Source: Candidatus Izemoplasma sp. (GTDB taxonomy: Bacteria > Bacillota_I > Bacilli_A > Izemoplasmatales > Izemoplasmataceae). Taken from it: a stretch of DNA of 64,000 nt. Position numbers and translations under genes: made by a program. The notes under the pieces were generated by a model. It was given only the letters and a program-made list of their open reading frames with translations, was not told the DNA's origin and ran no database searches. The DNA lies in NCBI GenBank assembly GCA_036172455.1, contig JAXKVY010000001.1, positions 124,001 to 188,000 of the forward strand, given 5' to 3'. Of this stretch, positions 5,696 to 12,339 are shown one piece after another; the first letter of the stretch is position 1; each line of letters begins with the position of its first letter.

Positions 5696-6520
5696 TTATT
5701 GAATTTGGACAGTAATGTTAAATAGTGTATAGTCTTCAGTGATTTCTGGGATCATAATAAACTTAATCCCGCTATGACCAATATCGTTTATGAGAGTATC
5801 TGTATTTTCATGCGTTGCGATTAATAGCTTATCGTGGGCATAATCAAGACATTTCTCAACCATCTGAGCCGACATATTATGGATTCTGATAATATCACAT
5901 GCCGTCTTTGAGGCAGCTATATAATCCTCTATTGTTTCAACAACTACTTCAACTTTCACATCTGTGGACAAGTGTTTTAAGACATGTGAGACGGCAGCTT
6001 CGATGGTTGAATATTCTTTTAAGTGATCTTTTGTAATCACACAGTAATCACTTAATGTAAAACGGTGATTAATCCCACCACCATCAATTACAGCAGCTTT
6101 TTCAAATACTCTAAAGTTAGGCGTCGTTAGACGATTATCTAATAAAAGAGTATCCGTATGCTTCAGTAAGTTTACATAATGATGTGTTAAGGTCGCAATA
6201 CCACTTAGACGCTTAAGGAAGTTTTTCGCAATGCCTAATCCTTTTAGTACATCACATGCCGGTCCATGAATAATCATGATAATCGTACCTGAATCAACCC
6301 ATACGCCGTGGTCATTGATCACTTTTAAGACAATCTCAGGGTTAATGATCTCATACAATCGTTTGATAAATTGTGTTCCACTTACAATTCCGTTACTATT
6401 CGCATGAATGGTTATTTCAGCTGTAGAATGAAAGAGTAATAGTTCTGATGTAATATCACCATTAGGGACCTCTTCTTTTAAGGCGTTTTCTAATAGTCGA
6501 TCAACTGTTTTATCCATCAT
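5696..6520 (-). CDS. NadC-like (quinolinate phosphoribosyltransferase family) protein with degenerate active site
   Basis: The fold is recognisable from NGDITSELL near residue 20, LSGIAT (105-110), DNRLTTPNFR (128-137) and GGGINHRFTLSD (147-158), the NadC/ModD family. In active NadC these segments read RKT, LIKxNH, LDN and ExSG. Here they read R130-L131, V161-I-T163, I213-H214-N and I234-A-T-H, so both conserved lysines, an aspartate and a glutamate are replaced, while N151-H152-R153 and R130 remain. No nadA or nadB is in the window. It therefore may not make NaMN; it could be a pseudoenzyme that binds a pyridine or PRPP ligand, or use another substrate. Its start (ATG 6520, or the adjacent ATG at 6517) follows the Fic-like regulator by 6 bases, and argS follows by 16, so the three form one transcription unit. 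Family confidence is high, function is unknown. Confidence 0.7.
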   Translation of the reverse strand: MMDKTVDRLLENALKEEVPNGDITSELLLFHSTAEITIHANSNGIVSGTQFIKRLYEIINPEIVLKVINDHGVWVDSGTIIMIIHGPACDVLKGLGIAKNFLKRLSGIATLTHHYVNLLKHTDTLLLDNRLTTPNFRVFEKAAVIDGGGINHRFTLSDYCVITKDHLKEYSTIEAAVSHVLKHLSTDVKVEVVVETIEDYIAASKTACDIIRIHNMSAQMVEKCLDYAHDKLLIATHENTDTLINDIGHSGIKFIMIPEITEDYTLFNITVQIQ

Positions 6521-6526
6521 CTTACC

Positions 6527-7597
6527 CTATATTTTTAAATCAAGTTGCTCAAACTTAAATTGTTGTTTTTTTGGTTTTGTAAGTCGCATCCATTTCGCAC
6601 TTCGGCCTTTACCAATTGGCCTAATTGCACCTTCATCACGCAATCGTCTTAATGTTCTATTAATAGTTGAGTCTGAGACGAATGGATGTTTTTGTCTGAG
6701 GTCATCTTTACTGAATATCTCTTCGAACTTGAGGATTGTATTTTCAATATTATTGGTTTTATTTAAGTGTTTATCGAATTCGTAATCTCTAACTAAGTAC
6801 CGTAAGGTTTGATAAGATTCAATCGCTTGCTTGAGTAAAAAGCGGTGTAATGGCAATACTTGAGCTAACCCTTCAGAGTAATTAAAAGATGACTGTAAAA
6901 CAACTTGTTTAAGTTGTTCTTGATGTTGATGTATATGTTTCATAAAGCTCACATATTCATACACTTCATAGCCATTTGCAAGTAATAAAATATAAATGAG
7001 AAGCATACCAATTTCTTCATTTTTATCATAAAATGGCTTAATATGAATAAAATCGATATAGAAATTTACAATCAGATAATTGACTTCATAGCTTTCTTCT
7101 TTGAGTGCTTCATTGAACAAATCGACAGCCTGATCGAGTACGTCACGTGTATTTCGATAGGTTTTGTCTAATAAGGTTGGAGCTTTAATGTCATCATTTA
7201 GTTTCCGGAATTGACAATGTTTTTTAGGGATGATATCAGTATATAAAAACTGCATTAAGTCTTGAATTTCATTGGTTAAAAGTTCAAATGTCGAGATATC
7301 ATCATGAATTTTGTGAAATGCTAATTTCAAGTTTTTAATGAGTTGTTCATCTTTGTTTTTGGGTTTAACGTCTTTAAATACCAGTGATTTAAAACGTCGA
7401 TTAGAGACATCAATATCAAACATTTTGGCAAAGAAATAAACATCATTTTTAATTGTTTGGATGACAATTGTTTCATAATCATCACTTAAAATTTGGTGTG
7501 TTTCTTGGTTTGTACCAATTGATTGGTACACCTTAATATACTGCATAATAATATCATTCGGAATTTGTGTACGATCAATGTTTCTAAGGCATTTCAT
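6527..7597 (-). CDS. pseudo-Fic domain protein with C-terminal winged-helix DNA-binding domain
   Basis: 356 residues. Residues about 140-260 resemble a Fic domain. The signature, normally HPFxDGNGRxGRLL, here spans residues 187-200: K187-P-F-Y-D-K192-N-E194-E195-I-G-M198-L-L. The catalytic His is Lys and the phosphate-loop glycines and arginines are lost, so AMP transfer is unlikely. Residues about 296-340 form a winged helix (STINRTLRRLRDEGAIRP, then the basic wing GKGRSAKW). I infer a ligand-responsive transcription regulator built on a dead Fic enzyme. The ATG has a GGAGG site 7 bases upstream, and the gene is first in the run with the NadC-like gene and argS. No antitoxin-like inhibitory helix gene is adjacent. 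The domain reading is moderately sure; the role is inference. Confidence 0.65.
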   Translation of the reverse strand: MKCLRNIDRTQIPNDIIMQYIKVYQSIGTNQETHQILSDDYETIVIQTIKNDVYFFAKMFDIDVSNRRFKSLVFKDVKPKNKDEQLIKNLKLAFHKIHDDISTFELLTNEIQDLMQFLYTDIIPKKHCQFRKLNDDIKAPTLLDKTYRNTRDVLDQAVDLFNEALKEESYEVNYLIVNFYIDFIHIKPFYDKNEEIGMLLIYILLLANGYEVYEYVSFMKHIHQHQEQLKQVVLQSSFNYSEGLAQVLPLHRFLLKQAIESYQTLRYLVRDYEFDKHLNKTNNIENTILKFEEIFSKDDLRQKHPFVSDSTINRTLRRLRDEGAIRPIGKGRSAKWMRLTKPKKQQFKFEQLDLKI

Positions 7598-7712
7598 TAG
7601 ATGTCCTCCAATCTTTTCATTGATATTAATAGTTTACTATATTTAGGCTGTTTTTGGAAGAAATTCAACCTTATTTGTAGTCATTACTATAAATTTGAGT
7701 ATAATCAGTACA

Positions 7713-7736
7713 AAAAGTAGCGGAATCGCTACTTTT
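7713..7736 (-). terminator. intrinsic terminator of parEC
   Basis: The inverted repeat AAAAGTAGCG / CGCTACTTTT has a 4-base GAAT loop and is followed on the minus strand by a short T tract. It overlaps the parC stop codon at 7729-7731. Confidence 0.75.
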
Positions 7737-10254
7737 CGTTTTCTTCATCAAATAATTTTTGTTGAATTGTTTCGTGGTCATCTTCTTTTTCGTAATCACT
7801 TAATGGTGGGATCGTGTCATCTTCTTCTACATCCTCAATTTGCATGTAGAGCGGTTCACCATCTTCAGGGTTTAAGAAGTGGCGACCATTCTCTGTCCGA
7901 TCAACTTTAATGTCAAATGCACTGATATCAATAAAGCCTGTATTTGTATTAATACGGATCATTGCACGGTTTTTGTACTGTGTTGCATTCATTAAGCACG
8001 CATCAACCACAAGATATGGATTTGATTTAACCACTTTGTAAAGTTGAACACCTTTATTGGTGCGTTTTTTCTTCTCAATTGTCGTGAGATCAACCCGTTT
8101 AATGGTGCCTCTGTTAGTAAGGATTAACAAATCATGATGGGCTTTTAGAATAATACCGGTACTGAGTTTATGTTTTGGTGCAATATTCATTGCTTTTACC
8201 CCTTTTGCGGAGGTTGATGTAACGGGTATTTCATCTAAGTTCATGCGCAATCCAAGGCCACGTTCACTTAAGATTAAGACTTCACGATCTTGTGTTTCAG
8301 TGGTATCAATAGACACAACTTCATCACCTTCATTTAGTGATAAGGCACGGATTGTTCTTGAATATCGAGAGACATCGAAATCACTTAGCTCAGTTTGTTT
8401 GATTAAATTGTCACGTGTAACAAATAACAGTTGCATTGAGACTTCAAAGTCCGGGACAGCTAAGACTTTAATGATATGTTCATCATTTAATTGAACAATA
8501 TTATTAATATGCGTTCCTAACTCACGCCATTTATAGGTTGGAACTTTGAAGACAGGAAGATAAATATAATTCCCTTTATTAGTAAACAGTAATAATGTAT
8601 CGATAGTTGATACTTCTTCTTCAAAGAGTAAAGAATCTGTTTCTTTTAGATTTTGATTTTCTGTCGCACGGTATGAACGAATTGATGTTGATTTAATATA
8701 TCCATCTTTACTAACACCAACAACCACTTGTTCATCAGCAACAAGTTCTTCTTCTTGGATGGTAATTTTTTCAATCTCATCCTCAATTTCTGTTAATCGA
8801 TCGGTTTGTAATAGCTTGCGTGTTGCACGTAGTTCTTTGATGATAACATCTTCAAGTTCAGATTCGTTCTTTAATATTTTATTTAATTGATCAATTGTTT
8901 CATTTAAATCTGCTTTTTCGCCTTCTAAAGCTGTAATATCCGTTGTTGATAAACGATATAATTGCAATGTAACAATTGCTTCTGCTTGTTCTTCTGTAAA
9001 CTCAAAACGCTTAATCAATTGTTTCTTAGAATCCTTTTTATTTTTCGAAGCACGGATGATTTTGATAACCTGATCAACGATATCAACCATGCGGATAATA
9101 CCATCAACAATATGAAGTCGTTTTTTCGCTTTATGAAGCTCATAATTACTACGGTTTGTAATAACTTCTTTTTGATGTAAAATATACGCATCGATAATTT
9201 CGAATAATCCCATTAATTTTGGTCGTTTATTACTAATCGCAACCATGTTATAGTTATAGGATTTTGTTAAATTCGTTTTTTTATGTAAAAAGTTTTCGAT
9301 GACTTCCGGATCAAATGTCTTTTTAACAGTGATGACAATCCGTAAACCATGACGATCCGATTCATCGCGAACTTCTTCGATCCCATCGATATGTTTTTTT
9401 ATCCGGATATGATCAATTCTCCGTACAAGATTAGCTTTATTCACTTCATAAGGTAATTCAGTTACGATAATTTTTTGATCTTCAATATGTGTTTTTGATT
9501 TAATAATGATTCGTCCTCGACCCGTTTCAAAAGCTTTTTTGATTTGGTCTTTTCCTTGTACTATTGCACCCGTTGGAAAATCTGGACCTTTCACGATTTT
9601 TAACGCTTGTTCCATCGTAAGTTCGTGGTCTTTAAGTCGTTTAATAACAAGGTTGATAATTTCTTTTAGATTATGGGGGGGGATTTCAGTTGCGTATCCT
9701 GAACTAATCCCTTGTGCTCCATTACACAATAAGTTAGGGTACCGTGATGGGAGAACTGTTGGTTCATATTCTTCATCATCAAAGTTTGGGATAAAGTCAA
9801 CTGTACGTTTGTCGATGTCGCGAATTAACTCTTCACTGGCTTTGCTCATACGGGCTTCAGTATACCGCATTGCAGCAGCACTATCACCATCGATAGAGCC
9901 TTTATTACCATGCATATCAACAAGTAATGTACGCGTCTTCCATGGTTGTGATAGTCTTACCATCGCATCATACACAGAGCTATCACCATGTGGGTGATAC
10001 TTCCCGATAACGTCACCAACGATACGCGCAGATTTCTTATAAGGTTTGTTATGAAACATTCCAAGTTTATACATCGCATATAATATACGGCGTTGTACAG
10101 GTTTCAATCCATCTCTGACATCTGGTAATGCACGGTCTTGAATTATGTACTTTGAATAACGTGCGAAGCGTTCACCAACAATATCTTCTAAGTTTTCTTT
10201 GAGTATGTTTTGATCAATAAAATCGTCTAATGCTTTTAATTTTGATTTTGCCAA
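7729..10254 (-). CDS. parC: DNA topoisomerase IV subunit A
   Basis: Breaks and rejoins DNA to decatenate daughter chromosomes, working with ParE. The 841-residue protein has the type IIA breakage-reunion domain with [20 protein letters not shown] (about residues 42-61), [16 protein letters not shown] (about 89-104) and the catalytic tyrosine in AMRYTEARM near residue 130. A beta-pinwheel C-terminus follows from about residue 500. It lacks a GyrA-box (QRRGGKG), which together with the partner favours ParC over GyrA. It lies 13 bases after parE and ends in its own terminator, so parE-parC form a two-gene operon. The tail is acidic. Confidence 0.95.
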
Positions 10255-10267
10255 TGTTGTTCACCGC

Positions 10268-12193
10268 CTAAATTTGAAAGTCATCTTCAGAAGAGAAAGT
10301 TACATTATTTTCAATCCACTCACGACGTGGTTCAACTTTATCTCCCATTAAGATTTTTATTCGTTGGTCTGCATCAGCTAAGTCATCGATGGTCACTTGA
10401 ATTAAGGTACGCGTGTTAGGATTCATGGTTGTTTCCCATAATTGATCGGCGTTCATTTCCCCTAATCCTTTAAATCGTTGAATGCTGAAGGAATTATGTT
10501 CTTTTAGTAAGGCATCCATTTCTTCATCAGTCCATGCATACTCAATGATATTCTTATTACGATACTTCCGCGTTAATTTATATAACGGTGGCAAGGCAAT
10601 AAAGACCTTATTTGCTTCAACCAATTCACGCATATAGCGGAAGAAAAAGGTTAATAATAAGACTTGAATATGAGCACCATCCGTATCAGCATCGGTCATA
10701 ATAATAACTTTATCATAATTACATTTGTCAAGATCAAAATCCGGTCCTAATCCAGCTCCTATGCTATGAATAATGGTGTTAACTTCTAAGTTCTTCAAGA
10801 CATCTTCTATTTTAGCTTTTTCAGTATTAATTACTTTCCCACGTAGTGGTAATATCGCTTGAAATCGTCTGTCACGACCTTGTTTTGCGCTGCCGCCGGC
10901 ACTATCGCCCTCAACTAAATACAGTTCATTGCGTTCAGGATTTTTACCTTGAGCAGGTGCGAGTTTACCTGATAAATTGGTCTCGCGACGTTTGGTCTTT
11001 TTCTCTAGACGGGCTTCTTCACGCGCTTTACGAGCCGCATCACGTGCTTGTTTAGCTTTTAAGGCTTTTTCAATTAACGTATAGGTTAAATTGTTGTTTT
11101 CCTCAAAAAAGTAAGTCATTTTCTCAGATACGACCTGTTCGACTGCGGAACGTCCTTCAGGGGTACCTAATTTATTTTTGGTTTGTCCTTCGAATTGTAG
11201 CAACTGTTCAGGAATACGGATGGAAAGGATGGTTGTAAGTCCTTCTCTTATATCTGCACCTTCTAACCGCATACCGTTTTTAATGAGGCCAACGCGTTGG
11301 CCGTAATCATTGAATAGTTTTGTTAAAGCGGATTTATACCCTGTCACATGAGTTCCACCATCACGTGTACGGACGTTATTTACAAAGGATATGATTTGGT
11401 CTGAATATGATTTTGTAAATTGAAAGGCTACTTCAACTTCTATATCTAAGGCAGTACCTTCTAAAAAGGCAGGATCATGAATGGCTTTTTTGTTTTCATT
11501 AATGACATCAACATACGAAATAATCCCATCATTATAATGGAATGATTCTGTTGTGTCTGAGCGTTCATCAATAAGTTCTACTTGAAGACCTTTTAAAAGA
11601 AATGCATTCTCACGAAGACGTTCTTTAATAATCTCAAAATTGAACACTGAGGTTGAAAAGAGTTCACTATTTGGCTTGAACCAAACAATGGTTCCTGATT
11701 TACGGGTATTGCCCAGTTCTTCTAGAGGTGTCACTTTGGTGCCACCCTCACTAAAGCGAATATGATGAATTGTTTGGTTACGATAAATCGTAACATCGAC
11801 AAATTCACTCAAGGCATTCACAACACTTGCCCCGACACCATGTAGACCGCCAGAGACTTTATAGCCACCAGATTGTCCAAACTTACCACCAGCATGTAAC
11901 CGTGTGTATATAATTTCTACAGCACTTTTCCCACTGGAATGGGCACCGACTGGCACACCGCGACCATTATCTTCAACGACGACACTATTGTCCTCTTTGA
12001 TGATGACTGAGATCTTATCTCCGTAGCCAGCTAATACTTCATCAATGGCATTATCAACAATTTCCCAAACTAGATGGTGTAAGCCACGGGCATCTGTACT
12101 ACCGATATACATCCCTGGTCGTTTACGCACTGCCTCTAGTTCTTCAAGAATTTGAATTGACTCTGCATTGTACTCATTTGTTGTGTTATTCAT
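10268..12193 (-). CDS. parE: DNA topoisomerase IV subunit B
   Basis: ATPase subunit of topoisomerase IV. The GHKL ATPase domain shows RPGMYIGSTDARGLHHLVWE near the N-terminus, EVLAGYGD, and GRGVPVGAH followed by GGLHGVGASVVNAL. The toprim domain has LVEGDSAGGSAKQGRDR, PLRGKVINTEKA and MTDADTDGAHI. About 641 residues, normal for the family. I place the start at ATG 12193, 10 bases after AGGA; a GTG three codons upstream (12202) is possible but sits almost on the ribosome site. It is transcribed from a good promoter at 12229-12257, divergent from plsY, and cotranscribed with parC. Confidence 0.95.
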   Translation of the reverse strand: MNNTTNEYNAESIQILEELEAVRKRPGMYIGSTDARGLHHLVWEIVDNAIDEVLAGYGDKISVIIKEDNSVVVEDNGRGVPVGAHSSGKSAVEIIYTRLHAGGKFGQSGGYKVSGGLHGVGASVVNALSEFVDVTIYRNQTIHHIRFSEGGTKVTPLEELGNTRKSGTIVWFKPNSELFSTSVFNFEIIKERLRENAFLLKGLQVELIDERSDTTESFHYNDGIISYVDVINENKKAIHDPAFLEGTALDIEVEVAFQFTKSYSDQIISFVNNVRTRDGGTHVTGYKSALTKLFNDYGQRVGLIKNGMRLEGADIREGLTTILSIRIPEQLLQFEGQTKNKLGTPEGRSAVEQVVSEKMTYFFEENNNLTYTLIEKALKAKQARDAARKAREEARLEKKTKRRETNLSGKLAPAQGKNPERNELYLVEGDSAGGSAKQGRDRRFQAILPLRGKVINTEKAKIEDVLKNLEVNTIIHSIGAGLGPDFDLDKCNYDKVIIMTDADTDGAHIQVLLLTFFFRYMRELVEANKVFIALPPLYKLTRKYRNKNIIEYAWTDEEMDALLKEHNSFSIQRFKGLGEMNADQLWETTMNPNTRTLIQVTIDDLADADQRIKILMGDKVEPRREWIENNVTFSSEDDFQI

Positions 12194-12228
12194 CTTCTGC
12201 ACATCCTATTCAATATTAACTCTTACTA

Positions 12229-12257
12229 ATTATATCAAATCTTAGTCATTATATCAA
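12229..12257 (-). promoter_or_regulatory. sigma-A type promoter for parE-parC
   Basis: On the minus strand TTGATA (12252-12257) and TATAAT (12229-12234) are separated by exactly 17 bases, about 27 bases upstream of the parE RBS region. It is close to consensus. Confidence 0.75.
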
Positions 12258-12299
12258 AATGAAATATATTTTAGTACTGTATTTTTTATTTTCATATGA

Positions 12300-12305
12300 T
12301 ATAAT
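12300..12305 (+). promoter_or_regulatory. -10 element for plsY
   Basis: A perfect TATAAT lies 40 bases upstream of the plsY ATG and 24 before the TTG alternatives end. The -35 position (12277-12282, CTGTAT) is poor, so only the -10 is well supported. Confidence 0.5.
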
Positions 12306-12339
12306 GATGTATAAATGACTTCTGGAGTTGATTTTGGTT

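Follow-up and report, generated by a model that had tools for sequence, protein, structure and literature searches.

We report that a protein with a degenerate Fic domain and a C-terminal winged helix (hereafter pseudo-Fic), encoded in the window, i.e. the whole stretch of 64,000 nucleotides from Candidatus Izemoplasma sp. that was analysed, probably binds DNA, represses its own gene and serves as an accessory or terminus factor at dif, where the copies of the chromosome are separated, as judged by sequence comparison. Its orthologues have lost the Fic active site, a common motif is found upstream of its gene and beside dif, the spacing of this motif to dif is fixed, and the gene lies near dif and near the topoisomerase IV genes. 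With one predicted site in the promoter of its gene and another at a set distance from dif, it is probably a protein of the chromosome terminus, and of a new kind, rather than a metabolic sensor. We infer that pseudo-Fic binds these sites, dimerises, represses its own promoter and acts on Xer or Topo IV.

A Fic protein without its active site

The gene and the two regions of its product in which motifs have been lost are as follows.

6527..7597, (-) strand: pseudo-Fic winged-helix protein, 356 aa (open reading frame, homology to 8uqu, orthologues in the family)
6998..7039, (-) strand: degenerate Fic motif KPFYDKNEEIGMLL, residues 187-200 (alignment of 74 orthologues)
7400..7465, (-) strand: region of the lost autoinhibitory motif S/TxxxE(G/N), residues 45-66 (comparison of orthologues and paralogues)

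The Pfam Fic model scores the protein at 17 bits (E=0.011), under the curated cut-off of 24. Its best match among solved structures is 8uqu, a 'Fido domain-containing protein', with E=5e-17 for the single sequence and E=7e-27 for the family profile. Since the alignment spans residues 62-338, the homology runs through the C-terminal winged helix, and by this homology pseudo-Fic is a remote Fic-domain protein of the Fic/Fido superfamily. Both proteins have a Fic domain followed by a winged helix over nearly their full length; 8uqu keeps the intact motif HPFPDGNGRMSRLL, whereas the pseudo-Fic orthologue group is without it.

The window genome is related to 'Candidatus Izimaplasma', and the nearest record of the protein shares 82% identity with it. 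Orthologues were found in 45 of the 49 genomes of the family and, at E 1e-15, in 82 of the 90 genomes of the order, and they are present in further families of the class. They form a single clade in a FastTree tree (support 0.975). A second tier of matches, at about 90-130 bits, consists of paralogues with an intact motif in all eight cases read, and the window genome itself encodes two other Fic proteins, both intact.

The loss of the motif was counted in an alignment of 74 orthologues and compared with eight paralogues that other genomes in the class encode. The catalytic motif of Fic AMP transferases, HxFx(D/E)GNGRxxR, was found in none of the 74: Gly, Arg and Arg are absent from the positions aligned to G194, R195 and R198 in every orthologue, His187 is retained in two and lost in 72, and Gly192 is retained in four. 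Asn193 and Phe189 persist in 71 and 65 of them, respectively. The class II autoinhibitory motif S/TxxxE(G/N) is likewise gone from the aligned orthologues. All eight paralogues have an intact catalytic motif, and the autoinhibitory motif reads SNxIEG in seven and SNAING in one. A loss common to all 74 orthologues, next to intact paralogues, is more than chance; by this alignment none of the orthologues examined has a live Fic domain, and the loss is ancient.

These results bear out an earlier note on this DNA, in which the motif was read as KPFYDKNEEIGMLL with the catalytic His and both arginines missing, a C-terminal winged helix was described, and an alignment of homologues was called for in case the copy was an isolated mutant. 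Since 74 of 74 sequences lack the second Gly and the two Arg, it is no isolated mutant, and the winged helix both aligns with 8uqu to residue 338 and is the best conserved region of the protein.

The winged helix and a predicted operator

6581..6742, (-) strand: C-terminal winged helix, residues 286-339, best conserved part of the protein (conservation and pLDDT)
7677..7702, (-) strand: predicted binding site ATACTCA-N12-TGACTAC in the pseudo-Fic promoter region (conserved in relatives; best match of operator model R1)
7713..7736, (-) strand: terminator-like hairpin at the end of parC (scan of the + strand; inverted repeat with flanking A/T runs)

Conservation among the 74 orthologues reaches 0.74 in the winged helix and 0.40-0.62 elsewhere, with 0.40-0.58 in the Fic region. 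The eight paralogues show the reverse, the catalytic motif being most conserved (0.96) and the winged helix less so (0.69). Loss of the motif in all orthologues together with the high conservation of the winged helix indicates that the activity was lost long ago and that selection holds the DNA-binding part. AlphaFold2 gave the helices and wing strands of the winged helix (residues 281-340) a pLDDT of about 70-82; outside it the model is poor, with a mean pLDDT of 46, because few sequences (three) were in the input.

The hairpin appears to end parC, and the pseudo-Fic gene therefore probably has a promoter of its own. An inverted repeat with the consensus ATASTCA-N11-14-TGASTAT lies upstream of the gene and of its orthologues in other families; in related genera it has a spacing of N12-14 and a position of about -105 relative to the start codon. 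Orthologues in the families labelled f2, f5 and f7 are also preceded by matching repeats, and in an f18 genome one such repeat precedes parE. A total of 12 sites score at least 13/14, against 0.02 expected from shuffles, though many of these genomes are related. The dead Fic domain, the best-conserved winged helix and the operator-like site together make a DNA-binding autoregulator likely from the sequences.

No clear copy of the repeat was found in the parE promoters of the family. In these promoters, which lie between the divergently oriented plsY and parE genes (about 12203-12327 in the window, and the corresponding region of relatives), the sequence ACACTAYAAA is strongly conserved close to the -35 position.

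Gene neighbourhood

7729..10254, (-) strand: parC, topoisomerase IV subunit A (TIGR01061, 951 bits over the cut-off)
10268..12202, (-) strand: parE, topoisomerase IV subunit B (TIGR01058, 976 bits over the cut-off)
5696..6520, (-) strand: NadC-like gene directly downstream of pseudo-Fic (TIGR00078, 178 bits, cut-off 198.4)

The NadC-like gene follows after a gap of 6 bases and is probably on the same transcript as pseudo-Fic. Within the family the order parE-parC-pseudoFic-(nadC)-argS-(recJ)-apt is largely kept. The parE-parC pair is near the pseudo-Fic gene in most families, XerD is a neighbour in loci of f5 and f22, and the genes downstream differ between families.

Distances to dif were taken from 73 genomes with both the gene and dif on one contig. 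The gene lies within 2 kb of dif in 38 of them and within 200 kb in 69, with its 3' end toward dif in all 73 and on the same strand as dif in 69. This orientation and position partly reflect the genome-wide orientation of genes along the replichore. In f5, f7, f16, f18 and f22 the gene adjoins dif.

Pseudo-Fic could be an ordinary local regulator that detects a small molecule through its dead Fic domain and, through the winged helix, governs the operon to which it belongs (pseudo-Fic, nadC, argS, recJ and apt), the sites at dif being secondary or coincidental. Such a regulator would fit the operator-like site in the promoter, the compact order in which the gene stands with nadC, argS, recJ and apt in a number of genera, and the example of CccR, a Fic-HTH autorepressor (PMC9755527). 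We regard this explanation as unlikely, because the downstream genes vary by family, NadA has no match in the window genome, and the adjacency of the gene to dif in five families is left unexplained.

The earlier note had gone further and likened the protein to NrtR, as a regulator whose Fic domain became a ligand sensor. Its regulator part is strengthened by the palindromic operator-like site at 7677-7702 in the proposed promoter region; its sensor part is not. The idea of an NAD sensor is weakened because nadC adjoins pseudo-Fic in some genera only and NadA is absent. The NadC of the window differs from 5hup in two conserved motifs, with RLT for RKT and a changed segment in the place of LKDNH. 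Sites at NAD genes across genomes, as expected of an NrtR-like regulator, are not borne out by this pattern, and the second-strongest predicted site of the window genome is found beside dif and not before a metabolic gene. The Fic fold may still bind a ligand. The NadC-like protein itself, scoring under the TIGR00078 threshold and encoded in a genome with no NadA match, possibly has an altered function.

Predicted sites at a fixed distance from dif

The training set of operator model R1 comprised 19 sites, of which 18 lie before pseudo-Fic genes and one before a parE gene; it included site 7677-7702 and no site at dif. The pseudo-Fic promoter, a training-set site, ranks first in the whole window genome (E 2e-4). 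The second-ranked place is outside the training set and lies in the flank of dif, 128 bp from it (E 0.011), and the next distinct place has an E of 0.22. Over the 49 genomes of the family, the best matches are pseudo-Fic promoters and a group between the genes for a PHP-type phosphatase and an asparaginase. The sequence ACTTCCTATAATATATATTATGTTAACT between these two genes is dif, identified by its match to B. subtilis dif, ACTTCCTAGAATATATATTATGTAAACT (PMC3025954), and many top matches other than pseudo-Fic promoters are dif flanks. The region before the asparaginase gene had also been considered as a metabolic target; it holds no Rfam riboswitch, and it contains dif. In the window genome dif is at G000:C1:40619-40643, beyond the window and about 90 kb from the pseudo-Fic gene.

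When the genome was searched with a plain pattern that tolerated up to two mismatches, 57 places matched, little more than the 45 of the control. Allowing up to one mismatch gave five places; besides the gene's own promoter, three that were read closely lie in coding regions, and L131 lies just past the end of an open reading frame.

The position relative to dif was tested by counting full repeats, defined as matches of 11/14 or better, that start at -132..-126 of dif. Such a repeat is present at 57 of the 105 dif loci from families with pseudo-Fic, while 37 control windows in the same loci gave a mean of 0.65 and a maximum of 3. A merely local regulator leaves this unexplained. The counts by family are 17/17 in f1, 8/12 in f2, 2/3 in f3, 14/21 in f12, 10/14 in f22, 1/3 in f5, 3/9 in f7, 1/7 in f16 and 1/1 in L034. 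Families f18 (0/14) and f10 (0/4) have the protein and no repeat at -129, and are real exceptions. Kinship among the genomes inflates all these counts. Most f7 and f16 loci score under the threshold; by eye, their dif flanks (L278-L285) hold variant palindromes near -130, e.g. TAAGTCA..TGAGTTA.

With dif read in the orientation written above, the left half starts at -129 in 28 of 85 loci, at -130 in 10, at -128 in 10 and at -127 in 7, and the right half starts at -111/-110. A second left half-site is present at -65/-64 in 22 of the 85. The spacing within the repeat is mostly N11 at dif and mostly N12-14 in promoters. The repeats lie on what we take to be the XerC-arm side of dif, by alignment with E. 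coli dif. The E. coli sequence was taken from PMC3025954.

In genomes of the class without pseudo-Fic the repeat was found at 1 of 20 dif loci, and weakly. The comparison of 54/85 with 1/20 gives a Fisher p of 1.4e-6, uncorrected for phylogeny, a significance which is inflated since related genomes are not independent. The repeat might instead be bound, at dif and in promoters alike, by another protein, pseudo-Fic just happening to have one site in its promoter. Against this speak the near absence of the repeat at dif where pseudo-Fic is lacking, its presence in front of pseudo-Fic genes from several families, and the resemblance of the half-site to that of CccR, another Fic-HTH protein (PMC9755527). 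In favour of a different binder, f18 and f10 keep the protein without the -129 repeat, and the assignment of the repeat to pseudo-Fic comes from sequence; we nonetheless hold a different binder to be very improbable.

Closed genomes bear on a further explanation, namely that pseudo-Fic is a MatP-like or RTP-like organiser or fork trap with many sites in the terminus domain, and not an Xer/Topo IV accessory factor of dif only. A winged-helix DNA binder positioned at dif would suit this, and weak extra matches are in excess within 150 kb of dif in two of the five closed genomes (p=0.009 in G048 and p=0.013 in G056). The other three show no such excess, most extra matches are weak, and the fixed distance between site and dif points to the recombination site itself, so that we find a terminus organiser quite unlikely. 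Two further strong matches to the operator model were seen near dif, at G045:C1:1727095-1727131 (31 kb away) and G012:C24:92307-92342 (about 1.5 kb away).

Proposed role at the chromosome terminus

We propose that the dead Fic fold with its winged helix most likely binds, as a dimer, the half-sites ATASTCA and TGASTAT. At the site in its own promoter the protein would regulate its own gene, probably by repression. Beside dif, the predicted site has its left half at -129 (-126..-132), and a further half or full site is frequent at -64/-65; pseudo-Fic bound there would probably assist XerC/XerD and/or topoisomerase IV at dif in the final step of chromosome separation, as an accessory or organising factor. 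Against this role count the exceptions f18 and f10, the sub-threshold loci of f7 and f16, and the unequal spacing of the half-sites in promoters, at dif and in CccR. The Fic part may be a scaffold for dimerisation or docking. A more specific form of this proposal, in which a dead AMP-transferase has become, in a whole group of bacteria, a dedicated accessory system of the chromosomal dif that docks at -129/-65 and, helically phased, licenses Topo IV and XerCD to complete chromosome separation, is put forward tentatively, as conceivable but somewhat doubtful.

If the proposal is true, a new protein joins the short list of those acting at the bacterial replication terminus, an enzyme fold can turn into a factor of chromosome structure, and the uncultured Izemoplasmatales and their relatives gain a testable terminus system.

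Comparison with known systems

CccR of Yersinia pseudotuberculosis is a Fic-HTH protein that represses its own promoter via AGATAATCAT-N26-ATGATAATCT and binds this inverted repeat as a dimer (PMC9755527). Pseudo-Fic has in common with it the Fic domain, the C-terminal winged helix or HTH and, as far as the DNA sequence tells, a promoter of its own gene with an inverted repeat; the half-site AGATAATCAT is close to ATASTCAT of the pseudo-Fic repeat (PMC9755527). The Fic domain of CccR is active and toxic, whereas that of pseudo-Fic is dead; CccR is a secreted effector, its half-sites are spaced by N26 instead of N11-14, and the parts consulted report no link to dif (PMC9755527). The publications found that name both a Fic domain and XerC are, by title and abstract, genome surveys on other subjects.

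FtsK gamma is found in nearly all these genomes, and thus pseudo-Fic does not simply replace FtsK. Its matches tend to be weaker in families with pseudo-Fic (about 1e-11 to 1e-23, with the exception of f10), and reach about 1e-25 to 1e-32 in several families without it (f9 and f20 excepted). Genus g144 of f12 has reduced genomes (0.6-0.9 Mb) with no dif match and no strong pseudo-Fic match; those of its genomes named in the FtsK gamma table lack FtsK gamma as well, which fits a common loss.

RTP of Bacillus subtilis is a winged-helix DNA binder of the replication terminus, but it is small, lacks a Fic domain, and binds Ter sites and stops forks. MatP, to our knowledge, has no Fic domain, and we know of no accessory site described at a fixed distance from a chromosomal dif.

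In E. coli, XerC directs Topo IV to dif, where MatP aids its activity (PMC4865107). Pseudo-Fic would resemble MatP as a DNA-binding protein of the terminus that promotes Topo IV activity at dif (PMC4865107); MatP differs in acting through matS sites within the Ter region, as stated in the abstracts of PMC4738335 and PMC7394560. At the plasmid sites cer and psi, ArgR/PepA and ArcA/PepA, respectively, are accessory proteins that bind beside the Xer core site (PMC5357621). These are unrelated proteins, and the accessory sequences at cer extend over about 180 bp (PMC5357621). A predicted site at a fixed place beside the core site is what we find at 57 of the 105 dif loci, with none in f18 and f10; the role of pseudo-Fic may be compared to that of MatP with Topo IV at E. 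coli dif, or of ArgR/PepA at cer.
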